From Urmitella timonensis (GTDB lineage Bacteria; Actinomycetota; Actinomycetes; Actinomycetales; Actinomycetaceae), in NCBI GenBank assembly GCA_900120415.1, contig FQLW01000006.1, forward strand, positions 992,001 to 1,056,000: a DNA stretch of 64,000 bases, given 5' to 3'. The notes under the pieces are model-generated. The model saw nothing but the letters and a program-made list of their open reading frames with translations. It was not told the DNA's origin and made no database searches. Of the stretch, positions 3,335 to 38,437 are shown piece by piece. Numbering within the stretch: the stretch's first letter is position 1; every line of letters starts with the position of its first letter. Position numbers and translations under genes: made by a program.

Positions 3335-4650
3335 CGTGCCTCCTTTTCGCCTGGAGAGTCCTTTTTTACCTCAGTAACTTTCAAGCCGGTTACCGGGCAG
3401 GCAGGTTCGGTATCTCCCGATTTTGGCGGTGTTTCTACAGCTAATCCCCAAACTTGTTGGAGGGCGTTTACGTATTCGCGCCCCAGCCCTTCGCGTCCGG
3501 CGCGATGAGCATTTATGGTGGGGATATGGGCTAGACGAGCCGCCAGGTGTCGCAGCGCATATTCGACTTCTGCGCGCGCAATATATTCCCCATTTGGCAA
3601 GCGGGAGATTTCATCAGCCAGCATCTGGCGAAAACTCTCGCGCAGCGCTACTACTACCGAATCCATCTGGCGGTCAGCTAACAGCTGCTCGGTTTTCTTA
3701 ACCCCCTCGGATACGATTTGTTCCGCCCGCTCGACTTGGGCTTTTCCTGCTTCCGGTACGTGAGCGCTGATTTCTTCTAAGTTGATTACTTTTACCCGCT
3801 CAAGGTCGGCTACCCCGTCCTCGATATCGGTTTGTAGAGCTAAATCGAGAATCGTCTTTTCTCCGCTAGATAGCGCTAAAGCCCGTCCTACTTCCTCTTT
3901 TGTTAATACCGGCGCACCCATACCCCGGCAGGTAACAATTAAAGTCGCTGCCTGTAAAGCCGTAACTAGCTGGTCTTTGGCTACCGCTTCGAGGTCGTGT
4001 CCAGATGCGAAGCGTTCGGCACGCCCGGAGGTGGAATAAACCGCAATATCTTGCACCCCTTTGGCGCGCAGTGCTGCCACGGTGGCTCCCGCATAGGAGC
4101 CGGTACCGATTAAGAGTGTCGGGGTTCCTGCCAGGGGAGTTATGTATTCAGCAGCCATTTCGAGGGCGCAGGCTACTACTGAACGTCCCTGGGAGGCTAG
4201 CCCGGTTAGATGTGCAACCCGGCGGGAGGTGCTGAGTGCTTCTTGGCAGGCACGGGTGATAGTTGAAGATGAAACTCGGTTTTGGGTAGCAACGGTGAGG
4301 GCGCGGCGCAGCTGTCCAGAGATTTCTCGTTCCCCCACCACCATGGAGTCTAGTCCGCAGGCGACTGTAAATAAATGTTCCAAAACCTGCCGGTCACGGC
4401 GAATCTCGCAGTCGGTACCTAACCGGGATTGGATATAGCTGTCTACCGCTTTTTGCTGTTCATCGCTGGTTGTGGGTGCAGTTTCGATGATTATTTCTAC
4501 CCGGTTGCAGGTGGACAGTGGTAGCACTCCCTGCACTTCGGGTAGCCGTTGCAATAGGTCTTTGGGTAATCCTTCGATGGTACTGGCGGCTGTGGCTACG
4601 GCGTTTAGCCCGTGCCGGAGATGATGTACCGAATAGGAAGAAAGACCCAC
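3331..4650 (-). CDS. hemA: Glutamyl-tRNA reductase
   Basis: HemA reduces Glu-tRNA(Glu) to glutamate-1-semialdehyde, the first committed step of C5-pathway tetrapyrrole synthesis. The 439-residue protein has the N-terminal catalytic domain with the active-site cysteine in PLSTCNRVEI, a GERE-I-GQ segment, an NADPH-binding Rossmann domain (IGTGSYAG) and a helical dimerisation domain. It is the first gene of the minus-strand hemA-hemH-hemQ unit and is divergent from hemE. A tRNA-Glu gene lies elsewhere in the window. The partner hemL is not in the window. Confidence 0.93.
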   Translation of the reverse strand: MGLSSYSVHHLRHGLNAVATAASTIEGLPKDLLQRLPEVQGVLPLSTCNRVEIIIETAPTTSDEQQKAVDSYIQSRLGTDCEIRRDRQVLEHLFTVACGLDSMVVGEREISGQLRRALTVATQNRVSSSTITRACQEALSTSRRVAHLTGLASQGRSVVACALEMAAEYITPLAGTPTLLIGTGSYAGATVAALRAKGVQDIAVYSTSGRAERFASGHDLEAVAKDQLVTALQAATLIVTCRGMGAPVLTKEEVGRALALSSGEKTILDLALQTDIEDGVADLERVKVINLEEISAHVPEAGKAQVERAEQIVSEGVKKTEQLLADRQMDSVVVALRESFRQMLADEISRLPNGEYIARAEVEYALRHLAARLAHIPTINAHRAGREGLGREYVNALQQVWGLAVETPPKSGDTEPACPVTGLKVTEVKKDSPGEKEAR

Positions 4651-4933
4651 GTGCTCATTAGACCATTTTTTTATTTTTTGAAAAGGACGGGGCGTTTTGT
4701 TTGCTCTCGTGTCTTACTGTTTTCTGTTTTCCCAGTCCAGGGGGTTGCGGAAGAATAATTATCTGCCAGAGTGTCACTAAGAATTAGGCTATTTCGCAAC
4801 AGACAGATGCGGAAAATGTGTCATAAAAAGCTGACCGCTTTTGACCTTGCGATATTTACCGGGGGCGGTAATCCAAATCTGGTATGTTTTGCTTTGTTTT
4901 GCGCCCACCTAACTTGCCGTAGATGATGGAAAT

Positions 4934-5968
4934 ATGTCTGAGCAAAATTCTTTCCTCCAAGCCGTTCGCGGCCTGCGTCCCGAGAAAACTCCAGTTTGGT
5001 TTATGCGCCAAGCCGGGCGTTCCTTGCCCGAGTATCGCCGCCTACGTGCCGGTAACGATATGCTCACTGCCTGCACTACCCCTGAACTGGCAGCGGAAAT
5101 AACCCTGCAACCGGTGCGCCGCTACGGGGTAGATGCCGCGATTTTCTTCTCCGATATTGTCACCCCCCTGTATTTGGCGGGTTTAAAAGTAGAGATAGTC
5201 CCCGGTAAAGGCCCGGTTTTCGCTGACCCGGTTTTATGTCCTGAGGACGTAGACCGCCTCACCAGCTTTAAGGGTTTTGATTCGAGCTGTATTACCGAGG
5301 CCGCGCAAATGGTTTGCGCCGAGCTGGGCGACACTCCCCTAATTGCGTTCGCGGCTGCGCCTTTTACACTGGCCTCCTACCTAATTGGGGATACCCGCTC
5401 GAAGAATCACCTGGAAGCGCGGGCTTTTATGCATTCTTACCCGGATGCCTGGAACCGGCTCGCCAGCTGGTGTGCGGATATGTCGGCGGCGTTCCTGGCG
5501 GCACAGATTGCCGGCGGGGCGCGTACCGCGCAGGTTTTCGATTCGTGGGTGGGCGACCTTTCACGCGCCGATTACCAAAGCTATTGCCTGGAGCATTCTC
5601 GGGTAGTGATTGATTCTGCTCATGCCCATGGAGTTCCGGTGATTCATTTCGGGGTGGGCGCGGCCTCCCTACTCGATTTAATGCGCGACGCCGGCGCGGA
5701 ATGTATCGGGGTTGATTGGCGGCTACCTCTAAGTGAAGCCGTAAAGCTAATCGAACATGGGCCTGGTGACCAATTCGCGGTGCAAGGCAATATTGACCCC
5801 GCCGTTTTGTTTGCTCCCCAGCAGATACGCCGCGACCATGTAGCTCAGGTGTTAGCGGAGGGTAAGCAGGCCGCCGCCCATATCGTCAATCTGGGACATG
5901 GGGTACCGCCGAATGTAGACCCCGCGGTTTTGCAAGAAATCGTCGACCAGGTACATGCAAATGGCTAG
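4934..5968 (+). CDS. hemE: Uroporphyrinogen decarboxylase
   Basis: HemE removes four carboxyl groups from uroporphyrinogen III to give coproporphyrinogen III. The 344-residue protein shows the N-terminal signature TPVWFMRQAGRSLPEYR, the FFSDIVTPL segment and the GNIDPAVL region near the end. It is transcribed divergently from hemA across 283 bp of non-coding DNA and ends seven bases from the stop of a convergent small membrane protein gene. Start ATG is chosen because alignment with the family begins there. Confidence 0.95.
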   Translation: MSEQNSFLQAVRGLRPEKTPVWFMRQAGRSLPEYRRLRAGNDMLTACTTPELAAEITLQPVRRYGVDAAIFFSDIVTPLYLAGLKVEIVPGKGPVFADPVLCPEDVDRLTSFKGFDSSCITEAAQMVCAELGDTPLIAFAAAPFTLASYLIGDTRSKNHLEARAFMHSYPDAWNRLASWCADMSAAFLAAQIAGGARTAQVFDSWVGDLSRADYQSYCLEHSRVVIDSAHAHGVPVIHFGVGAASLLDLMRDAGAECIGVDWRLPLSEAVKLIEHGPGDQFAVQGNIDPAVLFAPQQIRRDHVAQVLAEGKQAAAHIVNLGHGVPPNVDPAVLQEIVDQVHANG

Positions 5969-22806: not shown

Positions 22807-24108
22807 TTAATCAACAATCGATAGCAGCCACCGTAACCAGCTAATCACGGTGCGCGCGCGTCTATTTACCGTAGAGTCTGCATCACAAACATTTAGTTCA
22901 CGCATTAGTGAAATCACCGTATTACTGTCTGGTATTTGCCCAGTTATATAGGTCTGCTGAAATAGCTTGTTGAATATTTCATGCTCGAACATGTATTCAG
23001 CAAAGGCTAGTTGTCTATCACGCTTTCCGAGCTTTATCACTTTTTTGGCTCGCGCAGATAAGGTGGTTCTGCCTTTAGTTGAACGGTCGAAAAGACCAAG
23101 ATATTCGCCTGCTGCCGGATAGTAGGCTGCTTGTCTCTGAACGGTTCCCATGAACTGTGTAATCTCATCAGTGGTCATGCTATTGCCCTCAACACCCGCC
23201 ATATTCTCCATTAATGAGACTATCCGGTCGAATTTATCTGCCTGTATAAAGGGTATTTTCGTGGTATTTTTATCGTCACTGGTGAGAATGCGTACCTTTT
23301 TGCGCACATCCTCTAAATCACTGGTGGTAATACGTTGATTCTCGAAAGTATAGACCCCACTCTGCACTAACTCTAATGAGTTATAGTCCTCCAAATCAGC
23401 AAATCTATACTCATAGAGATAGTAGGTCATATTAGTGTACTGGGAAAACACCAGGCGTATTGGCTTCTTCACTAATGCCTGGTATTTTCTGTAAGGATAG
23501 TAGAGCTGGCGTACATGGAAGTCATCATTCAAGATGTTTTTAGCTTCCATAATGATTACCGAGTCCTTATTTTCAAAACCACCATCAATCTCTAACTGCG
23601 CACCCCGCACTGCAATACGAACTTTATTGTTATTAGTACAGGCGACCTTAAAATCAAAATCTCCTGTACCCATTCGACCATTGAAAGTTTCAACCGTATT
23701 GTCATTATCATCGGTATTTAGAAATTCATCTAAGATACCTGCTGCAAGCAGAGCGTTTATCGCATTTGCTTCAGTGGTTATATTGTCTGCCTGTAAAGTT
23801 TCAAAGTCTGGTAACGAACATAAAACAGGTTTTGTATCTGAAACCTGTTCAAATCCATGATGAAGTATAAAGTCTCCCAATACGTATGAGCGTCTGGATA
23901 TTGGAAGAACATTAATCCCCCGTGCCTTCAGCGGCTGAGGCACGCCTTCCGAGGTATCGTGTTTTGTCATTAGACGCGGTTCCCGGAATTTCTTTATCTC
24001 TGACGCTGGCAGTTCATAAACGCCACCATCGGCAATAGTTTCCATTATTTCGGGATGTGCTGCAAGAATGCCATTCCATGCTTCATTGGTTTTATTCTCT
24101 TCAGCCAC
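22807..24108 (-). CDS. Type II restriction endonuclease (PD-(D/E)XK fold)
   Basis: The 433-residue protein pairs with the adenine methylase upstream. A PD-(D/E)XK core can be seen: Asp175 in EIDGG and Glu188-x-Lys190 in IIMEAKN. The central domain (about 140-290) holds this nuclease core, and the rest resembles the winged-helix flanks of the restriction family with DUF6996/DUF6997-type domains. It is larger than DpnII or MboI enzymes, so the recognition site cannot be read from sequence. Its ATG lies within the end of the methylase gene (8-bp overlap), so it is translated after the methylase. The region is AT-richer than the housekeeping genes, which suggests transfer. Confidence 0.75.
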   Translation of the reverse strand: MAEENKTNEAWNGILAAHPEIMETIADGGVYELPASEIKKFREPRLMTKHDTSEGVPQPLKARGINVLPISRRSYVLGDFILHHGFEQVSDTKPVLCSLPDFETLQADNITTEANAINALLAAGILDEFLNTDDNDNTVETFNGRMGTGDFDFKVACTNNNKVRIAVRGAQLEIDGGFENKDSVIIMEAKNILNDDFHVRQLYYPYRKYQALVKKPIRLVFSQYTNMTYYLYEYRFADLEDYNSLELVQSGVYTFENQRITTSDLEDVRKKVRILTSDDKNTTKIPFIQADKFDRIVSLMENMAGVEGNSMTTDEITQFMGTVQRQAAYYPAAGEYLGLFDRSTKGRTTLSARAKKVIKLGKRDRQLAFAEYMFEHEIFNKLFQQTYITGQIPDSNTVISLMRELNVCDADSTVNRRARTVISWLRWLLSIVD

Positions 24109-24934
24109 TGATTAATACCTCATTGACGGCGCCGCGCAGATTGCCTTTACTGTTAATCGCTCTTCTTGCTTTTACAGTTTTAATATTGAAACCCTCATAT
24201 AGTTCCCGTATCCCAGGACAATCACTATTTGACTGCAAAAACGCGATTCCACTGTTTTTCAATCTTAGGCATTCGTCTCGTAATCTAACCTGTTCTTCGT
24301 ATCCAAAACCGCTCTGCGTGTAACCAGTGAAAGCGGAGGTAGCTGATACGGGCATATAGGGCGGATCGAGATACACGAATGCACCTTCAGGTAATTCAGC
24401 TAAAGCGTCAGCGTAATCTCCACACCTAATATCAACATCGTTTTGAAAGTATTTAGATAATGCCCTAATTCCGGGTTCGTTTACGATATTGGGGTGCTTA
24501 TAGTTTCCGTAGGGAACATTGATTTGTCCTTGGGAATTAACGCGGAACAAACCATTGAAGCAGGTCTTGTTTAGATATATCACTCTCGCAGCCCGTTCGG
24601 TGCTAGACAAATGCGAAAACGAAGGTTTACGGTCTAGGGCTCTGACTTCATAATAATAGTCGCGGCTGTTTAAAGCTTCATGTTGGCGTAGTAGATCTAG
24701 TAGCTCATCGGGGTCGTCACGAACTGTGCGGTAAACGTTAATCAGTTCGCCATTGGAATCATTGATACGCGCCCGTTTAGGCTGTGTATCGAGCAGCAGC
24801 GCTCCGCCACCTATAAACGGTTCTACATATAAGGAGAAAGATTCAGGAATTAAAGGCGATATTTCGGAAAGTAGTTGTCGCTTACCACCCACCCACTTCA
24901 AAATGGGTTTGAGCAAAGTGTTTTCCTTCGTCAT
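24101..24934 (-). CDS. DNA adenine-N6 methyltransferase (Dam/D12 class)
   Basis: The 277-residue protein is a D12-class adenine methylase, with SAM-binding KWVGGKRQLL near residue 12 and EPFIGGGALLLDT near residue 38, and catalytic DPPY near residue 190. It should protect host DNA at the site cut by the endonuclease encoded directly downstream. Many members methylate GATC or related sites, but the target here is not determinable by eye. Methylase first, nuclease second is the safe order for establishing such a system after transfer. Confidence 0.9.
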   Translation of the reverse strand: MTKENTLLKPILKWVGGKRQLLSEISPLIPESFSLYVEPFIGGGALLLDTQPKRARINDSNGELINVYRTVRDDPDELLDLLRQHEALNSRDYYYEVRALDRKPSFSHLSSTERAARVIYLNKTCFNGLFRVNSQGQINVPYGNYKHPNIVNEPGIRALSKYFQNDVDIRCGDYADALAELPEGAFVYLDPPYMPVSATSAFTGYTQSGFGYEEQVRLRDECLRLKNSGIAFLQSNSDCPGIRELYEGFNIKTVKARRAINSKGNLRGAVNEVLISG

Positions 24935-27240: not shown

Positions 27241-28968
27241 CTAGGCTATTTGTTGCCCTAAAAGCGTTCTATAAATTGGCTGATCTTTAAGTTCCTGATG
27301 AGTCCCTTCCGCAACCACGTGCCCACCCTCAAGAACTACGATATAATCCGCGATACGAATAGAAGCCAGCCGATGGGCAATGACGATAGTGGTACGGTCA
27401 GCTCTTGCGTGACGAATATTTTTGGCAATGGAGGCTTCGAGAAACGGGTCAATATTAGCTAGCGGCTCATCGAGGATGAGCATGTCGGGATGCCGAAGAA
27501 AAGCACGAGCAATCCCGATACGTTGACGTTCCCCACCCGAGAGCGTGGTTCCCCGATCTCCGACTTTCGCGTCTAATCCTCCTAAAGAAGTAATCAGCTC
27601 ACTGATATCAGCTTCGGCAAGAGCTGCCCAAATATCATCATCGGAGGCCTGCGGATTAGCTAAAACAAGATTGTCTCGCACAGTTCCGGCAAAGATATGG
27701 CAGTCCTGGGGAACAAGAGCCAGTCTTTCGCGATATTGATTCGGTTGATAGGAGCGAAGATTTTTCCCATCAAAACGCAGTTCGCCTTCCTGAGGATCAA
27801 GATAACGCATAGCCAGATTGGCTAGGGTAGTTTTCCCCGCCCCTGATTTTCCAACAATGGCGATTGAGCGTTTAGGAGTTGCGGTTAAGTTAACTTGGTT
27901 AATAACTGGCTTACCTGCCTGATAGGAAAAAACCGTATTGTCGCTAACTAAATGGTTTGTTTCTGCCTCGTATACGGCATGATTGGTTTCCGGGATGGAG
28001 GGGATGGGATCCTTAGCGTTAAGAATGGTATTAATCCGGTGTGCGCATGCCCCAATTTCTCCTACTCTCCCCAGCATGCCTACTAGCGTTGTCGCGGGGG
28101 TTGCTACTAGACCCGCTAGCGCCACCGCAACTGGTAACAAAGCTGAATCTAATTGTCCGGTCAGCACCCATCCAGTTAGGATGACTAGCAATATTGTGGA
28201 TCCGACTGTGGTGGCAATCGTAGAAAATGCTGATTCCCAAGCTTTCCTTATCGTTTGCGAATTCTTAGTTACCTGCACTTTTCGCGTTAAATCCAGGATT
28301 TGCGCATTTTGTTTATCCACCATCCCCAAGGAACGCAGTTCCCTTTGCCCTTGAATAGAATCCAGAACCGCAATACGCAATTGGGCTAGTTGATTACGTA
28401 ATTTTTTACCTTGTCGCCGTTGTATGGACATGAGGGCGAAAGGGAATGCAATCATAGCTGCAGTTGGTAACAGCATTATCAGTCCAACCGGACCAATAAA
28501 ACTCACCAGCACCCCGGTAAATAACATAGGAGTGAGGACGGCACAGATGGCAGTGGAGGCCGTATGCGCATAAAACCATTCCAACTGTTCCGCATCATTC
28601 ATGGCTGCCGATGCCACATCACCGGTGCGTTTTCCTTGCAATCCTAAGGGGGCAATTCTTTCTATAGCGTTATAAATATGCACCCGCAAAGTATGTAGAA
28701 TCCGGTAGGCAACTTCATGTGACCACCAAACCTCAAAGAGGGTACTCACGGCATGCACGACCACCAGGGTAAACATCATAACGAACAGCAGGGTCAGATT
28801 ATTCGTACGGTTTAATATGAATTGCGTAGATATCCATACTGAACTTACCGCAACCCCAACAACACTAATTTGGGCAAGTGCAGTCACAATAGTGGCAGCT
28901 ACGAAGAGAGGAACACACTCGCGTAGCCGCTTCATCAGCGCGAGGAAATTACTGAAAACTAAGCTCAT
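27241..28968 (-). CDS. ABC half-transporter (membrane domain plus ATPase), second of pair
   Basis: The 575-residue protein has six membrane helices (about residues 15-300) and a C-terminal ATPase with Walker A GKSGAGKT, signature LSGGERQR, Walker B LILDEPLANIDP and switch His in IAHR. Layout resembles CydC, IrtB or YbtQ. It starts 6 bp after the first half-transporter gene, so the two probably form a heterodimer. In an operon with a YcaO enzyme and peptide gene it may export the modified peptide; since Ybt- and Irt-type half-transporter pairs import metallophores, import is an alternative. It ends the minus-strand unit. Confidence 0.87.
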   Translation of the reverse strand: MSLVFSNFLALMKRLRECVPLFVAATIVTALAQISVVGVAVSSVWISTQFILNRTNNLTLLFVMMFTLVVVHAVSTLFEVWWSHEVAYRILHTLRVHIYNAIERIAPLGLQGKRTGDVASAAMNDAEQLEWFYAHTASTAICAVLTPMLFTGVLVSFIGPVGLIMLLPTAAMIAFPFALMSIQRRQGKKLRNQLAQLRIAVLDSIQGQRELRSLGMVDKQNAQILDLTRKVQVTKNSQTIRKAWESAFSTIATTVGSTILLVILTGWVLTGQLDSALLPVAVALAGLVATPATTLVGMLGRVGEIGACAHRINTILNAKDPIPSIPETNHAVYEAETNHLVSDNTVFSYQAGKPVINQVNLTATPKRSIAIVGKSGAGKTTLANLAMRYLDPQEGELRFDGKNLRSYQPNQYRERLALVPQDCHIFAGTVRDNLVLANPQASDDDIWAALAEADISELITSLGGLDAKVGDRGTTLSGGERQRIGIARAFLRHPDMLILDEPLANIDPFLEASIAKNIRHARADRTTIVIAHRLASIRIADYIVVLEGGHVVAEGTHQELKDQPIYRTLLGQQIA

Positions 28969-28974
28969 AGTCGA

Positions 28975-30708
28975 CTAGGCTCCTATCTGTGCACTAATCA
29001 ATCTTGACCAGGCATTATCTTCCTGGCTTAACGTACAGGGATTCCCGCTACAAAGCACTTTCCCGTGTCCCATTACCACTACATGATCTGTTTGCTCAGC
29101 AGCGTCAATACGGTGGGTAACCAGCAATAAAGTGAGATTCGGGTACGCCCTGCGAATATTAGCTAGAACCGTTGTTTCTGTTTGGGTGTCCAAACCAGAA
29201 GTAGATTCGTCAAGTACAAGGAGAGGGCACTTACGAACCAGAGCACGAGCGATTGCCAACCGCTGTTTTTGCCCTCCGGAGAGGTTCGAAGCATGTTCTT
29301 CAATTTTTAAATCAAGAATATTGTCACCAGAATCAGGATTGTTATCGGGATGCAGGTTTGTGGCACAGGCTAGCTTTAGAGCCGTCATCATCTCCGCTTC
29401 ATCCGCTTTGGGATTAGCTTCGGCTAAAATTGATCTTACTGTTCCCGGAAAAATAATCGGGTCTTGCGGAACTAGGGTGACGGTACGCGCAATATCCAAA
29501 CTGTCCGCTGAAACCCCTCCAACTGTGATACTTCCACTATCAGGGTGATCGAAACCCATTAATAACCCGAGCGCGGTGGATTTTCCAGAACCTGACAGCC
29601 CTACCAAGGCGGTTGTTTTACCTGCGGGAGCTGCGAAAGTGACTTGATCAAGAGCGTGATCTGTAGCTCCCGGATAAGCGTAAGAGATGCTAGCGAAAGA
29701 AACCTCATTGCTTTGAGGCAACTTTTGCGAAGATTTGCAGGTCGTGGAAGAAGTTTGCGTCTGCTCAAATATTTCGCTCATAGCTGGCAGCGCGGAAATA
29801 CCAAAGAATGCTTCATGCCAACATGCCGATAAGGCAGTAAATGGGCGGAACAGTTCGATAGATAGCAGCGTAACCACAAATAGCGAGCTGATTGGCATCG
29901 CCTCGGAAGAAATCAAAGAAATTGCGATCACTAGCCCGAGGGCGGGACCGAGCACTTTCATCATTCCTGATAGGCCCGTTTCCCCCAAGGAAAGCCGTAG
30001 CTGCCCCATAGTAGTTTTCAGCAGCTGGCTCGACTGTTTTTCCAATTGGGTGCCATGATTTTTAGCCGCCCCAAAAGATTTCAAAGTGGACATCCCCATC
30101 ATAGAATCCACGAAATCGGCATTGAGATTTTCGTACGCTATCCAATGCGATTGTCCGCGATTAGCAAGAGCTTTATCCCATAATCGGGGAATGGCAACAA
30201 TCGCGACTCCACAGACTAAAAGAACTCCCGCAATCAGGGGAGAAATGCTGGCAATAACAATCGTTAAACCAATCGCTGTTAGGGCGGTGACCGCAAGTTG
30301 GGTGAAATACTTGACGAAATAGGGTTCGATCGCCTCAACCCCATCAGTGAGAACCGACTGTATTTGTCCAGAACGCCCCAGCCCTCCCCGCATCGGTCCG
30401 CGCGCATCTAGTTGCTCTAGAAGAGCCCGCCGTAAACGGCTTTTTACCACTAGTCCCGCTCGATTTTGTAGAAGCTGTCCACTTACCTCAAGTAACGGGC
30501 GGATTAAGAGCAAGCCAGCGATAGCTATGATTAGTCCCACCACCATGGAGACTCGGCGAGAGCTCAATAGCTCATTGAAAAGCATGGCGTTGCACACCGC
30601 GGTTGCAATATATAAGCAAGACACCAGGACACCCAACATCATGGCGGGAGCCAGCAGCCACACGGAGACTCTCGCGGCGCGCATAACTAAACGTTGCTTT
30701 GTGAACAT
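28975..30708 (-). CDS. ABC half-transporter (membrane domain plus ATPase), first of pair
   Basis: The 577-residue protein has a six-helix exporter-type membrane domain (about 10-310) and an ATPase domain with Walker A GLSGSGKST, signature NLSGGQKQR and Walker B LLVLDESTSGLD. It is closer to CydD/YbtP-type than to peptidase-containing bacteriocin exporters, as no N-terminal C39 protease is present. It follows the YcaO gene by 34 bp and directly precedes its partner. Leader removal must then be done by another protein; the peptidase of the divergent unit is a candidate. Confidence 0.87.
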   Translation of the reverse strand: MFTKQRLVMRAARVSVWLLAPAMMLGVLVSCLYIATAVCNAMLFNELLSSRRVSMVVGLIIAIAGLLLIRPLLEVSGQLLQNRAGLVVKSRLRRALLEQLDARGPMRGGLGRSGQIQSVLTDGVEAIEPYFVKYFTQLAVTALTAIGLTIVIASISPLIAGVLLVCGVAIVAIPRLWDKALANRGQSHWIAYENLNADFVDSMMGMSTLKSFGAAKNHGTQLEKQSSQLLKTTMGQLRLSLGETGLSGMMKVLGPALGLVIAISLISSEAMPISSLFVVTLLSIELFRPFTALSACWHEAFFGISALPAMSEIFEQTQTSSTTCKSSQKLPQSNEVSFASISYAYPGATDHALDQVTFAAPAGKTTALVGLSGSGKSTALGLLMGFDHPDSGSITVGGVSADSLDIARTVTLVPQDPIIFPGTVRSILAEANPKADEAEMMTALKLACATNLHPDNNPDSGDNILDLKIEEHASNLSGGQKQRLAIARALVRKCPLLVLDESTSGLDTQTETTVLANIRRAYPNLTLLLVTHRIDAAEQTDHVVVMGHGKVLCSGNPCTLSQEDNAWSRLISAQIGA

Positions 30709-30742
30709 AATCGCCTATCCTTTCTCAACAACGGTATCGGTT

Positions 30743-32953
30743 CTACGCGTGCGGCATTGGGAAGGGGTTCATGCTGCCTTCAGGTCTTGGCGAATCCACC
30801 CATCCTAACCGTACTGCTTCCTCTGCCACCATATTGCGACCCAGGTAGGGAAATGCGGCGGGAGTATTGCCGATGGTGCCAGGAATTAATGTGCGAATCA
30901 CATGCAGTCCGCAAGAAGCGACATCGCGAGAGGTGATATCAACGGTTATTACCCGCATACCCCGGGCATGGATACGCTCTATATAGCTAGCTAATTGACT
31001 ATCTTTCAGCTGTGGCACAGATGAAATACTGCGGGTTGCTGGTATATCCAACAGTGGTTTCACTCTGTCTACCGCACGAGGATCTAGAAAGACCTCTTGC
31101 TGAATTAGGAGGTCATCTACATCTTTGAGATCCTCACGGAAATCATCCAGATAGCGGCGGTCACGGCGCCATTTCTTATATGAGCGTCCAGGAAGTAGAC
31201 CTTTACGGATTGCGGTCCAATGTGCCCCTTCGGGGTTTGCGAGGTCGTGAGCTCCTTCTTGTAAGGTGAGCGCTTCACTCCAGGCTTTTAAGGCGCCTTG
31301 TTCAACGCTCGAGCGACAAGAAAAACCAACGTGTACCAGTTTAGATACATCATTGTGAACTACCCCGGCTAGAACCGGAATATTGAAAGTGTTGTCTAGA
31401 TTGATCAAAGCGGGACGGAGGGGCTCTTTTGTCCCGATAAAAAGATCTAAGTATTTCTGAGGTAATTTCAGGTGCGGAAGCGCCTGGGTGTTCAACCACC
31501 ACACCATGGTGGCATGCCGCTCAATAATTTCACTGATACCAGATAATATCGCCTGTGCACTGCTGGTTCCTGCTGCTACTCCAGCAAAGGCAGGAAAGTT
31601 AACTTTCGGTTCTTGCCGATACTGGTTGGTATACCAGTTGACATACACCAAGGAGGCGGGAACTAAAACTGGCTCTTCATCCTCATAATAGGTACCTTCC
31701 ACCCACCCTACGGGCAGGTCAGGGGTCAACGGTACAAAAGGAAATCCGGGGTGCTGGTACTGGTTTGCAGAGAAAAGCACCAGTTCTTCCGGATGAAGAA
31801 GCGGGTATCCTTTTCTCGTTAATTCCCGATAAGAACCATGTAATACCGGTTTGAGATCAATTAGGTTAGAACAATAACGCTCAACTGATTCACCAATAGC
31901 CGCTAGTTCGGTGTCGTGGATCTGCGCTTCCTTTTCTTTTTCTCCAACCTCATTGGGGATTAACGTTGAGCCTTGGCAAAAAACTGTGTTGATATAAGTT
32001 GATGTTCTGCGTAAATCACACGTTCTCGCCTGGGTAGTATGCAGCGTAGGTGGCATATAGGCACTGTGCTGTACCCGGGTGAGCTCTTTTACGATTCCGT
32101 AGCATTTATCAACCACAAAGGGGGGAGGGTGAATTGGGGATTTAGGCTGGGGGCCCATCATAAAATTTGTGGGAAGCACCGCGTGAACTTCGAGCTCCCC
32201 TTCCAAGGAAATTGCCCAAATAGTGTCAAGGGGGTTTGATTTCTGGTTATCGATTTCATTGCGAGTAATAGCTCTAATTAATTCCGCTGCTTTGTGCCCC
32301 ATATTTTTGGCTGCAGCTAAGCGCGGTAAGAAGCTTCCCCATATGGGGCTACCCATTTTTGCTTGAAATACTTCACTATTGACTGCATTTCCGGCGAGAC
32401 GAGCAAGACTGTCGCTATAAGTTGCACCTTGCCCTTTAAGTACTGCTGGGCCAACCAATAGTTGGTCGGGGGTATGATCCACCGTGATCACTGAAATATT
32501 TAGCCCGAGATTGTCTTCAATGGTTTGCGCAAATACGGGAGCAGGCTCATCTCCGCGGCACACCACTAGCGTGCCGCAATTGAAGACTTGGTATGCACAT
32601 TCGCGAACTGACTGGGAAGACAGGCGCGCCGCGACATCATTCTTTTGAAGCTCCGAAGTTATTAAACGCGCAATTGTGGGGTCACCGCAGACAATTACCT
32701 CTGCAACGGCCGCAGATTGAGGATCAGGGGTCTGGAAGACTAGGTCATGCGTGTTGATAAAACAGCTGTGTTTTTCTAATGCTTTTTTCAACGGAGTGCC
32801 CAAAGGGTGAGTGGACTGGACATCCTGCGCCGCATCTAAGACGCGCACGATGCTATTAGCATCCGTTGAGAGCACCAGATCACGACCATCTGCACATGTA
32901 AGAACGCATCTATTCGTATCCAAAGGCCTTACTTGCGCGCAAATCTTCCACAT
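30743..32953 (-). CDS. Fused E1-like/YcaO cyclodehydratase for azoline formation
   Basis: The 736-residue protein has the layout of fused TOMM cyclodehydratases (PatD/LynD type): an N-terminal leader-binding and E1-like part (about 1-290) and a YcaO domain (about 300-736). YcaO ATP-site motifs are seen: GESVERY near 354-359, SEIIERH near 473-480, and AWSEALTLQE near 552-561. The chain ends in the Pro-x-Pro-x-Pro tail typical of azoline-forming YcaO proteins (P730, P732, P734). Such enzymes use ATP to cyclise Cys, Ser or Thr in a precursor peptide into thiazoline or oxazoline rings. The small peptide gene 78 bp upstream is the obvious substrate. No flavin dehydrogenase is encoded nearby. Confidence 0.88.
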   Translation of the reverse strand: MWKICAQVRPLDTNRCVLTCADGRDLVLSTDANSIVRVLDAAQDVQSTHPLGTPLKKALEKHSCFINTHDLVFQTPDPQSAAVAEVIVCGDPTIARLITSELQKNDVAARLSSQSVRECAYQVFNCGTLVVCRGDEPAPVFAQTIEDNLGLNISVITVDHTPDQLLVGPAVLKGQGATYSDSLARLAGNAVNSEVFQAKMGSPIWGSFLPRLAAAKNMGHKAAELIRAITRNEIDNQKSNPLDTIWAISLEGELEVHAVLPTNFMMGPQPKSPIHPPPFVVDKCYGIVKELTRVQHSAYMPPTLHTTQARTCDLRRTSTYINTVFCQGSTLIPNEVGEKEKEAQIHDTELAAIGESVERYCSNLIDLKPVLHGSYRELTRKGYPLLHPEELVLFSANQYQHPGFPFVPLTPDLPVGWVEGTYYEDEEPVLVPASLVYVNWYTNQYRQEPKVNFPAFAGVAAGTSSAQAILSGISEIIERHATMVWWLNTQALPHLKLPQKYLDLFIGTKEPLRPALINLDNTFNIPVLAGVVHNDVSKLVHVGFSCRSSVEQGALKAWSEALTLQEGAHDLANPEGAHWTAIRKGLLPGRSYKKWRRDRRYLDDFREDLKDVDDLLIQQEVFLDPRAVDRVKPLLDIPATRSISSVPQLKDSQLASYIERIHARGMRVITVDITSRDVASCGLHVIRTLIPGTIGNTPAAFPYLGRNMVAEEAVRLGWVDSPRPEGSMNPFPMPHA

Positions 32954-33031
32954 AACCCCTGATCCTCTTACCTATATGAAATATTGGGTAAAGTGCGTCT
33001 TAGCACTATTTTTTACTCGACGCCTATCTAC

Positions 33032-33136
33032 TTACCTCCATGCAAAGCTCTGCTGGGTAGCGCCGTGATGGCAGTGAGGAACAGTGATTTGATCGGTGTT
33101 CACTTCCTCAATCTCTACGATTTCGAGTGTGTTCAT
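33032..33136 (-). CDS. Candidate RiPP precursor peptide (34 residues)
   Basis: A 34-codon frame starts at ATG 33136-33134 behind an excellent ribosome binding site (AAAGGAGGGG at 33139-33148) and ends at TAA 33034-33032. The first about 20 residues are acidic and leader-like (EIVEIEEV near 5-12); the end reads PHCHHGATQQSFAWR. The core offers one Cys, one Thr and one Ser for cyclisation and three His as possible metal ligands. It is the first gene of the minus unit behind the iron-box promoter, directly before the YcaO gene, where RiPP precursors usually lie. No similar known peptide comes to mind. Assignment rests on position, ribosome binding site and composition. Confidence 0.75.
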   Translation of the reverse strand: MNTLEIVEIEEVNTDQITVPHCHHGATQQSFAWR

Positions 33137-33189
33137 TTCCCCTCCTTTCAAGCGATAGAAACTTCAGAGGCTAGCCTTTAACTTGTCGC

Positions 33190-33208
33190 ATAGGTTATGC
33201 TAACCTAA
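33190..33208. promoter_or_regulatory. DtxR/IdeR-type iron box between divergent RiPP and uptake units
   Basis: ATAGGTTATGCTAACCTAA matches the DtxR consensus TTAGGTTAGSCTAACCTAA at 17 of 19 positions. It lies in the only intergenic region between the minus-strand peptide/YcaO/ABC unit and the plus-strand peptidase/Fec unit, so one site can control both. Iron-loaded DtxR would repress them. Confidence 0.85.
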
Positions 33209-33212
33209 GTAC

Positions 33213-33240
33213 AGTTTACGTGGTTTCTTCTTTTGCACAA
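33213..33240 (-). promoter_or_regulatory. Candidate promoter of the precursor/YcaO unit
   Basis: On the minus strand TTGTGC (33240-33235), a 16-bp spacer and TAAACT (33218-33213) form a plausible promoter whose start site would fall inside the iron box, about 70 bp before the precursor start. A plus-strand promoter is less clear; TTGTCG-N17-TAAGTA (33183-33211), with the box in the spacer, is one option. Confidence 0.45.
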
Positions 33241-33278
33241 GAGGGAAATAAAACTACGGAACAAATGAAGGAGGTTAG

Positions 33279-34460
33279 GTGAACCAGATATCGCGACCCT
33301 CCCTGCCTAAGTGCGAAAACATGATCAAAGTGCGCGGTGAGATCCGGTTACCCGAAGGCAGTGCCTTCTACCCACAGTGGAAAACCTCTGGATCTAACCC
33401 GGTATATGGCGGTTACCAAGATGCTTGCGAAACCCTGGTTTGCGACACCAAAACTTTTGATGTCATCACCCACAAATCTGGAAAATCATTCCCACTAGGA
33501 CAGCACATTAAACCAATAAAAATGCTCGACCAAGAGCTCTATTTACAAGGCTCCTCCTTTATTAACGCTCCCCGCCTTTACCGACTTGATCGGAAAACTG
33601 GAGAACTAACTTTCGCTAAGAATGACACCTCCCGAAATGGCAACGCATTTACCTGCAGACAGATTTGGGCCCATAGTGAGGACGGAACCCGAATCCCTAT
33701 AGACTGCTTCGGAACGTTAGCGGGAAAACAGCCGACAATCGTATTTATTTACGGAGGATTCGGGAGGAACAATCACAGTTTTTACAGTCCAGACATTTAC
33801 TCAAAATGGTTAACCCGTGGTTACAGCGTTGCCGTTATTCACTCCCGAGGAGGCGGTGAATACGGGAAAGCTTGGCACCAAGCCGGGGTTAAAGCAGGAA
33901 GACGCAAAGTCAGGGAGGATATAGCCTCTTCTATTCGTGAATTGCATCGTCAAGATATTTGTACCCCCGAGACTACATTCGTACACGGCATGTCTCATGG
34001 AGCACTGCTGGCAGCGATTACCACTATCCACCACCCAGAACTGGTATCCCAAGTAATATGCCGCGTCCCGATTAGCAGCACGAAAGACCTGCCGAAAACA
34101 ACCTTAGGTCGTAAATGGTTAGACGAGTACGGGGATCCTCAAACCGCTGATTGGGATAACTTTATGAAAGAAGAAGATCCCTTAGCCTGTGATACCACAC
34201 CCCAAATTTTAAGCAACACATCTTGGCTGATTATTGGCTACTGCCACGATGCAGTCACCGCTATTTCTCATGCAGATGCCCTAGTCGAACGGGTAAATAA
34301 TTTGGGAGGAGAAGTAACGTACTGGCGTTATTCCAGCAAAGGCGGACATGAGGGGGCATGTGATCCCAGCAAGCGGATAGCCCACGAACGCAAGCTGTGG
34401 AGCTATCTGAGCCAAAAAGCATCTGAAATAAAAATGAAAGCAACAGGTTCTCCATGTTGA
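33279..34460 (+). CDS. Short prolyl-oligopeptidase-family (S9) peptidase, candidate leader peptidase
   Basis: The 393-residue protein has an alpha/beta-hydrolase peptidase domain with a full triad: Ser239 in GMSHGA, Asp324 in GYCHDAV, His357 in KGGHEGA. It keeps only a short N-terminal part in place of the about 400-residue propeller of classical prolyl oligopeptidases. No signal peptide is seen, so it acts in the cytoplasm. GTG start with AAGGAGG four bases upstream. It is the first gene of the plus unit and overlaps the Fec permease gene by seven bases. It may cut the leader from the modified peptide or break down the imported compound to release metal; neither is proven. Confidence 0.8.
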   Translation: MNQISRPSLPKCENMIKVRGEIRLPEGSAFYPQWKTSGSNPVYGGYQDACETLVCDTKTFDVITHKSGKSFPLGQHIKPIKMLDQELYLQGSSFINAPRLYRLDRKTGELTFAKNDTSRNGNAFTCRQIWAHSEDGTRIPIDCFGTLAGKQPTIVFIYGGFGRNNHSFYSPDIYSKWLTRGYSVAVIHSRGGGEYGKAWHQAGVKAGRRKVREDIASSIRELHRQDICTPETTFVHGMSHGALLAAITTIHHPELVSQVICRVPISSTKDLPKTTLGRKWLDEYGDPQTADWDNFMKEEDPLACDTTPQILSNTSWLIIGYCHDAVTAISHADALVERVNNLGGEVTYWRYSSKGGHEGACDPSKRIAHERKLWSYLSQKASEIKMKATGSPC

Positions 34461-35476
34461 CGAATCGAAAGCAACGCCTAATTCTCGGAATTATCTTAGC
34501 GTTAGCACTAGTCTGCTCAATAATAGTGGCTGTAATTGTGGGTGCTACGGATATTTCATTATCGGCAGCACTTGAAGGTATCGGTGCCACTCTGAGAAGA
34601 ACTACTGACACTGACGTTGACACTCAGATTATCGGCCAGGTGAGATTTCCCCGCGCTGTTTTGGGAGCAATCGTTGGTGCCGGCCTGGGTATATGCGGCC
34701 TAATAACCCAATCGCTACTGCGAAACCCATTGGGCGATCCCTATATTCTAGGTATTTCCTCCGGGGCCTCCACCGGCGCAGCAGCCGTCATAGTTTTCGG
34801 TACAACCAGCAATATCTTATCTGCATTGGGAATCACGTTCGGTGCCTTCCTGGGAGCAGTAGCCTCCATCCTGCTCGTCACCCTGCTAGCTTCTGCCGGA
34901 GGAAAAATCACTCCGACACGCATTATTTTTGCAGGTATGGCGGTAACTTACTTTTTCTCGGCAGTAACCAGCCTGATAACTCTAATGGCTAAAAACGCGG
35001 CTGGAACCAAATCGGTAATGTTCTGGATGCTCGGATCAATATCTAACGCCACCTGGCATGACTCCTTCATCGCCGGCAGCGTAGTAACTATTGCATTAAT
35101 TTGCTTCTCCATCTGGGGAAGACGGGTTGACATCCTTAACCTGGGAGACGATGCCGCAATCTCACTGGGTACCAGTCCTCGCCTCTATCGAAACCTCCTA
35201 TTCCTCATAGTGGCTCTCACTATAGCGGTACTTGTCTCCCTTACCGGCGCCATCGGATTCGTGGGCCTAGTTGTCCCTCATGCCGCGAAACAACTGGTAG
35301 GTTCCACCACTCGAGCTGCGTTACCTATCTCTGCCCTGGGAGGTGGACTTCTCGTCGTCATTGCCGACACCTGTACCCGCGTGGCTATAAGACCAGCGGA
35401 ACTACCTATCGGGATACTAACAGCCCTGGTAGGGACCCCTATGCTAATGGCTCTCATCAAGAAATATTCCAAATAG
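34454..35476 (+). CDS. Metallophore ABC importer permease, FecCD family
   Basis: The 340-residue protein has the FecCD/BtuC layout of about ten membrane helices, with family segments such as RFPRAVLGAIVGAGLGICG, RNPLGDPYILGISSGAS and the ATPase-contact region GFVGLVVPHAAKQLVG. A single permease gene is present, so it presumably forms a homodimer as BtuC does. It overlaps the peptidase gene and is followed by the binding protein and ATPase genes. Confidence 0.93.
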   Translation: MLTNRKQRLILGIILALALVCSIIVAVIVGATDISLSAALEGIGATLRRTTDTDVDTQIIGQVRFPRAVLGAIVGAGLGICGLITQSLLRNPLGDPYILGISSGASTGAAAVIVFGTTSNILSALGITFGAFLGAVASILLVTLLASAGGKITPTRIIFAGMAVTYFFSAVTSLITLMAKNAAGTKSVMFWMLGSISNATWHDSFIAGSVVTIALICFSIWGRRVDILNLGDDAAISLGTSPRLYRNLLFLIVALTIAVLVSLTGAIGFVGLVVPHAAKQLVGSTTRAALPISALGGGLLVVIADTCTRVAIRPAELPIGILTALVGTPMLMALIKKYSK

Positions 35477-35490
35477 AAAGGAAGAAAAGG

Positions 35491-36480
35491 ATGATCAAGA
35501 AACGAATTGCGGCTGGCCTGCTGGGTGTAAGCCTTGTAGCTGCCGCCCTCACTGGCTGCTCCGGGACAAAAGAATCGTCCAGCGCTGCTTCTGACCAACC
35601 TATTACAGTTAAAAACTGTGGGGTGGAAACGAAGTTTACTACCCCTCCTAAGAAAGTTGTTTCGATGGGAGTCACCGGTTTGGCGTACCTATTTGCTGCC
35701 GGAGCAGAAAAATCCATTGTTGGCCGCGCAAATGAATGGGGTGAAGAGCCGCCCTCCTGGATAGGTAAAAAAGCAGACGGAATCAAAGTGCTATCAACGG
35801 AATCCATTTCTATGGAAGCACTCATGAAATTGAAACCTGATCTTGCTTATGGTGGCGGATTCAGTTCCGAAACCACCGCTCCGAAAGCTGTAGCAGAAAA
35901 GGGAATCCCTGCCGTTGTAGATGCTACCGAGTGTAACTACTTCTATACAGATCAACAATCCGATGAATCGTTCAATACTACTTTGGCGGAGATTACTCAG
36001 CTAGGCAAAATCATGGGCACCTCCGAAAAAGCGGATGCCACAGTCAAGGAACTTAAAGAGAAACTAGAGCAAGTTAGTAATGAGAAAATCGGTAAAGAAC
36101 GCAAAGTTTCCTACGCCTACTACTACGGAGAAGGTCCCGAACTATTTAGTTACGGAAACAAAGGAGTCATGGGGGAAATAAATAAGACCCTTAACCTCGT
36201 CAGCGCTATCGACCCGAACTATCATCCGCACCAAGGCCCCATTGCTCCAGAAGCATTTGTTAAATCAGACCCCGATGTAATCATCTTGCTCACCGGAATG
36301 GGGGGCGCCACCAAAGATAGTTCAATGCAACGACTTGAAAGGATTCCTGGTTTCAAGGACATGAAAGCGGTTAAAAACGGCAACATTATCTACGCGGAAT
36401 CCGCAGTAGCTTATGCTTCCCCCACCGCGATTTATGGAACATTTGAACTTGCTGATCAGCTCAAGAAACTAGGAAAGTAA
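35491..36480 (+). CDS. Metallophore-binding lipoprotein, FecB/BtuF family
   Basis: The 329-residue protein has a lipoprotein signal peptide with lipobox LTGC (Cys near residue 24) and then the two-lobed helical-backbone binding-protein fold (PKKVVSMG near the start; LKPDLAYGGG; DPDVIILLTG; final FELADQL). It should hold the metal-peptide or another siderophore outside the cell for the adjacent permease. Ribosome binding site GAAAGGAAG precedes the ATG. Ligand identity is unknown; linkage to the YcaO genes suggests the cassette's own product. Confidence 0.92.
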   Translation: MIKKRIAAGLLGVSLVAAALTGCSGTKESSSAASDQPITVKNCGVETKFTTPPKKVVSMGVTGLAYLFAAGAEKSIVGRANEWGEEPPSWIGKKADGIKVLSTESISMEALMKLKPDLAYGGGFSSETTAPKAVAEKGIPAVVDATECNYFYTDQQSDESFNTTLAEITQLGKIMGTSEKADATVKELKEKLEQVSNEKIGKERKVSYAYYYGEGPELFSYGNKGVMGEINKTLNLVSAIDPNYHPHQGPIAPEAFVKSDPDVIILLTGMGGATKDSSMQRLERIPGFKDMKAVKNGNIIYAESAVAYASPTAIYGTFELADQLKKLGK

Positions 36481-36484
36481 ACGA

Positions 36485-37264
36485 ATGAATGATTCTCCCC
36501 TTACGATAGAAAAAGCTAGCGTTCATTTCGGTGACACCAAAGTTCTTGACGGGGTCTCCTTCGAGGTATCTCAAGGTAAAATTTTAGGTATCGCTGGTCC
36601 TAATGGTTCCGGGAAAACTACCCTCATGAGAGCTATGTTCGCTGCACAAAAACTATCGGAGGGGAGAATTCTCCTCAGTGGGCAACCTTTAAACCAAATG
36701 CGTCCCGGTCAGGTTGCCCGGCGTATCGCAGTCGTTTCCCAATTTGAGCATGACATGGAAAGAACCCGCGTGCTCGATATTGTTCTCCTGGGACGATCCC
36801 CGCATCGTAAAGACATCCAAGGATATAGCGCAGCAGATCGAAAAATTTGTCAAGAAGCTCTCCACGCTGTTGGAATGAGCTATGCACAAGACCGCTACGT
36901 GGATACCCTTTCCGGTGGCGAACGTCAACGGGTACTAATTGCTCGCTCCCTCGCCCAACAGTGCAAATGTACGCTTCTAGACGAACCCACCAATCACCTA
37001 GACGTAAAGTACCAACACCAAATTCTTAGCATCATTAAGAAAGTTAGCGATACAGCCGTCATAATTTTGCATGACCTTAACCTGGTAACCCGCTACTGCG
37101 ACCAGGCAATTATTCTTAAAAATGGACGCCTGCACACACAAGGTATCCCCGAGGATATTCTCACTCCTGAACTCATCCACGATGTTTATGGAGTAAGCGC
37201 CAAAGAAGTCCAAGACGGAAACGTCAAACAATTTATTTTCAAACCATTGCCATCCACCACCTGA
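36485..37264 (+). CDS. Metallophore ABC importer ATPase, FecE family
   Basis: The 259-residue ATPase has Walker A GPNGSGKTT, signature LSGGERQR, Walker B CTLLDEPTNHLD and switch His in ILHDLN, the usual FecE/BtuD pattern. It starts 4 bp after the binding-protein gene and completes the importer. About 110 bp after its stop a broken KilA-N fragment and the right 368-bp repeat begin, so it is the last gene of the cassette. Confidence 0.94.
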   Translation: MNDSPLTIEKASVHFGDTKVLDGVSFEVSQGKILGIAGPNGSGKTTLMRAMFAAQKLSEGRILLSGQPLNQMRPGQVARRIAVVSQFEHDMERTRVLDIVLLGRSPHRKDIQGYSAADRKICQEALHAVGMSYAQDRYVDTLSGGERQRVLIARSLAQQCKCTLLDEPTNHLDVKYQHQILSIIKKVSDTAVIILHDLNLVTRYCDQAIILKNGRLHTQGIPEDILTPELIHDVYGVSAKEVQDGNVKQFIFKPLPSTT

Positions 37265-37488: not shown

Positions 37489-37856
37489 TTGGGGGCAACC
37501 TCTTTGCTGGGGGGGATTAACCCTTTGGGGGTTAATGCTTTAAGAGTTCATGGGCAGCGTGCCCTTCGGGTTCGATTTGAAAAGTGCAGTGTTCGATTTT
37601 TCGTGGGAAATGAGTTTTCATACAGGTTTCTACCTGGTGTAATACTTCGAGGGCGTGTCCGTCTTTATAACACTGTTTAGCTATGATGATATGGGCTGAC
37701 AGTAATACAGTGTGGGAATTTAGGGGCCATACGTGCAGGTCGTGAAGTCCGGTAACATGGTCTACCCGCAAAATATGTTGGCGAATCTCGGCTACGTTTA
37801 GTTCCTTGGGGGCGCGGTCAAGCAAAATCTCCCCTGCATCTTTGAGTAGTTTATAG
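37489..37856. repeat. Right copy of 368-bp direct repeat
   Basis: Matches 26746-27113 over its full length by eye. This copy is continuous with the intact CDF gene, so it is the original context; the left copy is the duplicate. Confidence 0.95.
37516..37536. terminator. Hairpin downstream of the CDF gene
   Basis: ATTAACCC (37516-37523), loop TTTGG, GGGTTAAT (37529-37536). It overlaps the CDF stop codon and is present in both repeat copies. No strong T-run, so terminator function is tentative. Confidence 0.5.
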
Positions 37857-38437
37857 CCGCGGGGCAACATGGCGGCAGCGATTAACAGAGAAATAACGGC
37901 ATCAAAGCGGTTAATCCCAGTTAAACGAGTAACTATCCCTCCAGCAATTACCCCAACCGAGGAAATAGCATCTACGGTCACCTCTAGAAAGGCTGCGCGA
38001 ATGTTTAAGTTATCCCGGTGACGTCCCGCCATTACCAGCATCGAAAGCAAGTTTCCCAGCAGACCCGCCACCGCCCAGGCTGCCATCTGGGTGCCATCAA
38101 CCGGAATAGGGGTGATTAAATGCGCAATCCCCTCATATCCAATGACAGCGCAAATGATGATAATCATGCCCGCCTGGATTCCGCCAGCAATTGCTTCTAA
38201 CCGGGCATAACCATAGGTTAGAGCGTCCGTACTAGGGCGGGTCATTAAAGTGGCGGTAAAAGCAGCCAGTAATAGCCCCACAGAATCGATTGCCACATGA
38301 CCGGTATCGGCAGCTAAAGCCAAAGAATGAGATAAAACCGCCCCGACTAGCTGGGCGAGAAGCACCCCAAAAGTTATCGCAGCTGCGATTAATAGCCGGG
38401 TACGAGTAGAGCCGGTGGTCGGAGAATGCTGATGCAA
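37532..38437 (-). CDS. Cation diffusion facilitator metal exporter (ZitB-like)
   Basis: The 301-residue protein has six membrane helices and a C-terminal cytoplasmic metal-binding domain, the standard CDF layout. Metal-site residues are seen in helix 2 (HVAID, HxxxD) and helix 5 (EVTVD, in the AFLEV-xx-D form common in actinobacterial members). It exports divalent cations, probably zinc or a similar metal, in exchange for protons. Histidines at the start (MHQHS) may bind metal. Its last about 108 codons form the 368-bp direct repeat. Confidence 0.92.
   Translation of the reverse strand: MHQHSPTTGSTRTRLLIAAAITFGVLLAQLVGAVLSHSLALAADTGHVAIDSVGLLLAAFTATLMTRPSTDALTYGYARLEAIAGGIQAGMIIIICAVIGYEGIAHLITPIPVDGTQMAAWAVAGLLGNLLSMLVMAGRHRDNLNIRAAFLEVTVDAISSVGVIAGGIVTRLTGINRFDAVISLLIAAAMLPRGYKLLKDAGEILLDRAPKELNVAEIRQHILRVDHVTGLHDLHVWPLNSHTVLLSAHIIIAKQCYKDGHALEVLHQVETCMKTHFPRKIEHCTFQIEPEGHAAHELLKH

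Follow-up and report, generated by a model that had tools for sequence, protein, structure and literature searches.

A divergent locus with a peptide gene, a YcaO enzyme and an importer

The locus described here lies in a 64,000-nucleotide stretch of the Urmitella timonensis genome (contig FQLW01000006.1, positions 992,001 to 1,056,000; hereafter the window), where two divergent sets of genes share one promoter region that holds a DtxR-type box, ATAGGTTATGCTAACCTAA (33190–33208, assigned to no strand), two mismatches from the pattern TTAGGTTAGSCTAACCTAA. On the minus strand, a 34-codon precursor peptide gene (33032–33136 including the stop codon; ATG start, GGAGG ahead of it) is followed by a gene for a 736-residue fused cyclodehydratase, a predicted azoline former in which an N-terminal part is joined to a YcaO domain (30743–32953), and by genes for two ATP-binding cassette (ABC) half-transporters of exporter fold, ABC2 (28975–30708) and ABC1 (27241–28968), each matching PF00664 and PF00005. 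The plus strand encodes an S9 prolyl-oligopeptidase-type peptidase consisting of the catalytic half only (33279–34460; GTG start; PF00326, 76.5 bits), a FecCD-type permease (34454–35476; PF01032, 283 bits), a FecB-type substrate-binding lipoprotein with the lipobox LTGC (35491–36480; PF01497, 90 bits) and a FecE-type ATPase (36485–37264; PF00005, 114 bits). The initial annotation had read the locus as two divergent units around one DtxR-type box, and this layout held: the open reading frames (ORFs) lie where it had placed them, and the domains of the fused YcaO, the two half-transporters, S9 and FecBCD were matched by Pfam, that of YcaO also by NCBIfam. Taken with its relatives, this conserved cassette, which combines a ribosomally synthesized and post-translationally modified peptide (RiPP) with an importer under metal-type boxes, provides strong indirect evidence for a role in metal acquisition.

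The small gene encodes the His/Cys peptide MNTLEIVEIEEVNTDQITVPHCHHGATQQSFAWR, with a predicted leader ending in ITVP and the predicted core HCHHGATQQSFAWR. Against six relatives whose YcaO proteins are 54–68% identical to that of the window (L050, L051, L052, L054, L056 and L057 in our numbering of loci), the proportion of synonymous differences in the precursor was 0.59–0.97 and that of non-synonymous differences 0.10–0.30, and the precursors of L055 and L059 gave values within the range of these six. Four copies from the same genus showed zero or one non-synonymous change from the window. Because synonymous differences far exceed non-synonymous ones in the clade whose precursors share the stretch VPHCHH (invariant in 15 of 15 loci), the peptide is encoded by a real gene. 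The leader was short in the 25 precursors compared and was followed by the conserved element [AV]P-[NH]; every sequence had at least two His residues after the conserved Pro, and most also carried F-x-W near the end. Cys was confined to the VPHCHH clade, and distant actinobacterial cores, such as NANNHGHVSTAFAWS, have none.

Strong hairpins were observed in the gap between the precursor and YcaO genes of L051, L054, L056, L057, L059, L060, L075 and L024, and weak ones in Varibaculum. Such a hairpin could set an excess of precursor. The corresponding hairpin of the window (32954–33031) is weak (z-score −0.9) and its sequence is not conserved among the relatives; we therefore did not use it as evidence. 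A scan of 32950–33300 returned no sigma-70 promoter.

The YcaO of the window matched the Pfam YcaO model (174 bits) and the SagD model TIGR03604 (243.9 bits against a cut-off of 219.25), and the closest solved structures were the fused cyclodehydratases LynD, TruD and MusD (4e-11 for LynD, 1e-9 for TruD). Its sequence contains GESVERY and EALTLQEG and terminates in NPFPMPHA; GE[AS]xERY and a P-x-PH end were present in all 21 YcaO proteins compared, and the LQEG pattern in 14. No TfuA partner was matched among the cluster and flanking proteins in a Pfam scan. A Pro-rich C-terminus, ATP-site motifs and the absence of TfuA are traits of azoline-forming YcaO enzymes. Nor was a dehydrogenase (B protein, nitroreductase-type) matched among the cluster proteins or ten further flanking ORFs scanned, so the predicted rings would stay azolines. 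PADLOC gave no match for YcaO or S9.

The enzyme is 96–97% identical to that of Varibaculum cambriense and 92% to that of V. vaginae, which places the window in a Varibaculum genome, and it is 59% identical to a Mobiluncus mulieris YcaO. In one genome of the window's own genus (G404; locus L054), the cassette is a version with 56% identity in place of the 92–97% one, which may reflect replacement or horizontal transfer. In L073, L074 and L075, a second, divergent YcaO-like ORF lies directly 3' of YcaO (Pfam YcaO, 62.6 bits in L075 and 53.2 in L074; a weak phmmer match in L073).

Two further features of the window were recorded. Just 3' of the importer, on the opposite strand, is a gene for a metal efflux protein of the cation diffusion facilitator (CDF) family (37532–38437; TIGR01297, 217.5 bits against a cut-off of 82.35). 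At 22807–24934, a D12-class adenine DNA methyltransferase gene adjoins one for a DUF6996/DUF6997/DUF7226 protein, and the two resemble a restriction-modification pair.

Conservation of the cassette and retention of the importer and ABC genes

The searches covered overlapping sets of genomes at four ranks (class, 394; family, 200; phylum, 396; order, 396), and 29 loci from 29 genomes were read. Left out were 12 of 18 class matches, which were shorter and were read as short stretches only (E 1e-76 to 5e-61), and 2 of 22 family matches, the weak ones of G585 and G587. The initial annotation had made its proposal depend on homologous clusters keeping the peptide and the importer, and they do so over a range of 37–100% YcaO identity: a His-rich precursor stands beside YcaO in 29 of 29 loci, FecCD and ABC2 in 26, ABC1 in 25 (the L051 stretch stops after ABC2) and the binding protein in 23 by phmmer, plus L024 by Pfam. 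Linkage of a FecBCD-type importer to biosynthetic genes, by which metallophore systems are recognized, was thus found in 26 of the 29. All VPHCHH loci but L056 (14 of 15) have the S9 peptidase, and none of the 14 other loci does. Two S-adenosylmethionine-dependent methyltransferase genes adjoin the cluster in the distant relative L024 (10776–12358) and in the close relative L051 (14413–15926).

The binding protein was detected at 1e-30 in 24 of the 200 family genomes. Among these were 17 of the 18 genomes with YcaO and FecBCD (G516, whose binding protein is more distant, was missed) and seven in which a genome-wide search returned no cassette YcaO, one of them, G455, having an unrelated YcaO of 28% identity. 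FecBCD and the ABC pair were present in six of these seven and the box in five; L124, the remaining one, is interrupted by a contig end. At four loci (L122, L123, L125 and L126), FecBCD and the ABC pair persist in the same divergent layout, together with the box (1–3 mismatches), and no precursor, YcaO or S9 was found in the 13.5–14 kb read around them, the genome-wide search being for YcaO only. L128 likewise retains FecBCD along with the ABC pair, but no box of either type. In L127 (G567; 4120–5557), the box, precursor and transport genes are kept, and YcaO is reduced to roughly its first 51 residues, which run into FecCD; this locus is a deletion relic, a snapshot of the loss of synthesis with uptake kept.

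The ABC pair was found at 31 of 31 FecBCD loci in which both halves could be read (L051 and L124 are interrupted). Because it accompanies FecBCD even in genomes that lack the biosynthetic genes, it would have a role in import or recycling; S9, by contrast, goes with synthesis, since it is absent at the locus together with the precursor and YcaO in the four importer-only relatives. This pattern points to a place for S9 in synthesis and for the ABC pair in uptake, and it makes doubtful the "synthesis and export unit" of the initial annotation, in which the half-transporters had been grouped with the biosynthetic genes and not with the importer that they track. S9 matches residues 371–673, the catalytic half, of prolyl endopeptidase 2bkl and has recognizable active-site residues (Ser237 in GMSHG, His357 and candidate Asp324). 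It is predicted to remove the leader by cleavage behind the conserved Pro, a role that the catalytic-half match fits. Solved relatives of ABC1 included Sav1866 (206 bits), YbtQ (201 bits) and CydC; an assignment of ABC1 as YbtQ was not diagnostic, as Sav1866 and CydC scored alike, and an assignment of the two halves as CydDC was dropped because the scores fell below the cut-off. Solved relatives of the binding protein included iron, siderophore and haem binders.

DtxR-type and Zur-type sites at the cassette promoters

In the 2.14-Mb genome of the window, TTAGGTTAGSCTAACCTAA was matched with at most three mismatches at two places (none for a reversed-pattern control): the cassette promoter and a site preceding the gene for the iron permease EfeU, which scored above its NCBIfam cut-off. 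None of 200 shuffles gave a box as good as that of the window. All 15 VPHCHH loci (1–4 mismatches), and also L062 (3 mismatches) and L063 (5 mismatches), have a box in the 450 nt upstream of YcaO, again with 0 of 200 shuffles matching in each case. The genome encodes two DtxR-family regulators. A conserved 19-bp palindrome, the mark of DtxR-regulon promoters, thus stands at the cassette promoter, and regulation itself is predicted. The iron-box link drawn in the initial annotation is strengthened by the conservation of the box in the clade and by its recurrence at EfeU. Consensus scans of 16 loci for Fur, Nur, CsoR and NikR gave scattered best matches, those for Fur overlapping Zur-type sites.

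No DtxR box was found near YcaO in nine distant clusters (L023–L026, L060 and L073–L076). In seven of the nine, a cluster promoter carries a Zur-type 7-1-7 palindrome like TGAAAATGATTTTCA, at 0–1 mismatch from TGANAAYSRTTNTCA. The consensus was taken from a passage of PMC2823685; passages of PMC2823685 and PMC6103462 describe this consensus and Zur regulons that contain zinc-starvation genes. At most one mismatch from the pattern, there were 67 places in the nine genomes against 11 for the reversed control, 8 of them within clusters and 59 outside, with an excess that was clear in most genomes; G684 had no place at all. Of the outside sites, 23 were read (none of them from G183 or G144), and family searches assigned zinc-type or, once, Fur-family neighbours to 9. 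The zinc-type neighbours were alternative L28/L33 proteins, type-B L36, AztC/ZnuA-like, AztA-like and CobW/ZigA-like proteins, in G516, G977, G980 and G1271, which are four of the seven genomes whose cluster itself has such a site; the Fur-family regulator, with PerR as the best model, adjoins a site in G242. The genome of the window has a single exact match to the Zur-type pattern, and it lies ahead of ZnuA.

DtxR-type sites also occur in the Zur-type genomes (20 places in seven of the nine), none of them at the RiPP cluster. Seven were read; the neighbours named at six of them were a haem oxygenase, an ornithine/lysine N-monooxygenase, a FecB-type protein, an ABC ATPase, a class-III aminotransferase and a Trep_Strep membrane protein. 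The gene for this last type of protein is preceded in G516 by a pair of sites 73 bases apart (G516:C1:2890772 and 2890845; L100, L130), one Zur-type with one mismatch and one DtxR-type with three, which makes dual zinc and iron control possible there. Contig 34 of G1271 (about 55 kb; L106, L107 and L075) carries six Zur-type sites with at most one mismatch, at genes for L36, a class I aldolase, a CobW GTPase and the RiPP cluster, and forms a zinc-starvation island.

A tree of YcaO from 21 loci required two changes for each regulator label; for this count, the two-mismatch sites of L023 and L076 were taken as Zur and the five-mismatch box of L063 as DtxR. The DtxR clade stood beside the Zur-type loci L060 and L073–L075 (support 94/93), and L062/L063 formed a separate DtxR case. 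One and the same cassette therefore appears to be under iron control in one clade and under zinc control in others. The iron assignment of the initial annotation accordingly survives as the predicted metal of the VPHCHH clade and not of the family, because the distant relatives are mostly under a Zur-type site.

Proposed function and relation to known systems

The best reading of the cassette is an azoline-bearing metallophore that would act as a siderophore here and as a zincophore elsewhere. For the window, it likely encodes a ribosomally made siderophore, built from the peptide, given azolines by YcaO, recovered by FecBCD and switched on by iron starvation. The initial annotation had already proposed a ribosomally made azoline metallophore, a proposal now supported by the constancy of the precursor and FecCD among relatives and by the conserved box; metal binding and azoline formation are the parts that we infer. 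From the gene content, the conservation, the boxes and the co-absence pattern, the following route is proposed. Iron-loaded DtxR on the common box would block both operons, and low iron would free them. YcaO would dock on the leader (LEIVEIEE...) and form rings at Cys and/or Ser/Thr of the core HCHHGATQQSFAWR, so that azolines come to lie beside imidazoles, and S9 would cleave behind the conserved Pro in ITVP. Once exported, with the ABC pair as one candidate exporter, the product would bind iron; FecBCD would import the metal complex, and the ABC pair may act in uptake or recycling, as YbtPQ and IrtAB do. In distant actinobacteria, the same cassette with Cys-less cores (e.g., NANNHGHVSTAFAWS) and a Zur-type site would yield a zincophore.

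Extended to the whole group, this siderophore/zincophore reading becomes one that we favour by a modest degree: an actinobacterial family of YcaO-made ribosomal metallophores in which a core of precursor and YcaO is plugged into uptake by FecBCD and the ABC pair. Its sensor would have been exchanged in evolution, with Zur and zinc in most lineages and DtxR and iron in the Varibaculum–Arcanobacterium–Mobiluncus clade, as the peptide core changed from N/H-rich to HCHH, and the uptake-only relatives would exploit the peptide of others.

Several points weigh against the metallophore interpretation or parts of it. His and azoline ligands are better matched to Fe(II), Zn, Cu or Ni than to Fe(III). 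Because Cys is limited to the VPHCHH clade, thiazoline is not a family feature. Three of the 29 loci (L027, L061 and L064) have a precursor and YcaO without importer, ABC pair or box, and a major facilitator superfamily (MFS) transporter is present at L027 and L061. The best NCBIfam names for the importer (F420-0, B12, haem and siderophore types) failed to reach the cut-off in every case. On the zinc side, L023 and L076 have Zur-like sites with two mismatches only, that of L076 lying in front of a gene for a CobW GTPase, which is followed by the precursor gene; the Zur pattern at one mismatch was not enriched in G242 (5 places against 4 for the control) and was weakly enriched in the genome of the window (14 against 5); several zinc-type neighbour names score below curated cut-offs; and two outside sites read in G102 had neighbours without a family assignment.

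The loci without an importer also bear on the possibility that the product is an antibiotic or toxin of the thiazole/oxazole-modified microcin (TOMM) type, induced by metal starvation, with the importer merely on the same promoter. Many characterised TOMMs are toxins or antibiotics. Goadsporin and plantazolicin are antimicrobial according to PMC4603692. We nevertheless regard this explanation as unlikely: FecCD and ABC2 accompany YcaO in 26 of 29 loci over several families, two different metal regulators are predicted, the core is short, His-rich and poor in Cys, Ser and Thr, and several genomes keep the importer, ABC pair and box without the biosynthetic genes, which fits uptake better than immunity. 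Alternatively, the peptide could aid uptake of haem, cobalamin or another metal complex in a haemophore-like manner, and not that of free iron or zinc. The closest named models of the importer include F420-0, BtuC and haem types, and a haem binder is among the solved relatives of the binding protein; however, those three models are all below cut-off, the Zur-type sites of relatives fit zinc and not haem or B12, and the other box of the window genome is at EfeU, so that we give this idea little weight. Slightly less weight still goes to a single cargo metal, zinc or manganese, in all clades, with the box answering to a manganese-sensing DtxR relative: the genome has two DtxR-family regulators and a box alone does not distinguish iron from manganese, but the same box stands at EfeU and VPHCHH-type cores differ from Zur-type cores in their likely ligands. 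A signalling role for the peptide, or one as an internal regulator of the importer instead of a ligand, as a short product beside its own transporters might have, is very improbable given the need for a cyclodehydratase, the lack of a receptor gene conserved in the cassette and the importer-only genomes that manage without the peptide.

The YcaO family of the cassette probably has a name already. The mobilisin section of Cox et al. 2015 (PMC4603692) describes a group of 52 D proteins, found in Actinobacteria that include Mobiluncus and Rhodococcus, with a short, Cys/Ser/Thr-poor peptide spotted by hand, and gives no product or function. The family of the window YcaO is probably this group: both have a fused cyclodehydratase and a short peptide, and membership is likely, not proven, on the basis of the 59% identity to the Mobiluncus mulieris YcaO. 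The section in PMC4603692 names B, C and D proteins and no importer, metal box or peptidase, and its B protein was not found in the window cluster or the ten flanking ORFs scanned. No related use of the name beyond Cox et al. 2015 was recognised in the literature, judged by title, and no YcaO-made siderophore or zincophore was recognised in a literature search made mostly at title level with few subscription papers. The initial annotation knew of no described system with this gene set; the YcaO family itself was very probably named mobilisin in 2015 and is in that sense not wholly undescribed.

If the reading is correct, bacteria would have a new, directly gene-encoded way to scavenge scarce metals, and a function would be given to the orphan mobilisin group. 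A siderophore or zincophore held in a 34-codon gene would make metal ligands readable, predictable and comparable from DNA, and one scaffold under two predicted metal sensors is a natural experiment in which metal specificity becomes testable. A shared good with apparent non-producing users would be added to microbial communities.

Among better-studied systems, the cyanobactin enzymes LynD and TruD are the nearest solved structures and share the fused architecture with a C-terminal YcaO part, but their E-values are just 4e-11 and 1e-9, and the precursor, operon and regulation of cyanobactins are unrelated to those of the window cassette. Methanobactin resembles the proposed product in being a ribosomally made peptide metallophore that carries azole-type rings and has an uptake system of its own; it differs in its copper, MbnBC enzymes and other transport. 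Yersiniabactin with YbtPQ and mycobactin with IrtAB combine thiazoline or oxazoline siderophores with exporter-fold ABC pairs that act in uptake. Both are made by non-ribosomal synthesis, whereas the peptide of the window cassette is gene-encoded and FecBCD is present too. To our knowledge, known siderophores and zincophores are products of non-ribosomal or other small-molecule enzymes, and coelibactin is non-ribosomal as well. Coelibactin of Streptomyces, as described in PMC6103462, resembles the distant clusters in having Zur-controlled metallophore genes in actinobacteria, and differs in that the cassette product is a RiPP. Captophorins and bufferins, as described in PMC13097082, are ribosomal peptides that bind metal through ring-modified residues, with multinuclear non-haem iron-dependent oxidative (MNIO) enzymes, thiooxazole and copper detoxification. 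Here, the corresponding terms would be YcaO and the acquisition of iron or zinc with an importer. The ribosomal metallophores met in this comparison, the captophorins/bufferins and methanobactin, are copper-linked, and the cassette is a variant of two kinds already known, the TOMM RiPPs and the metallophores.

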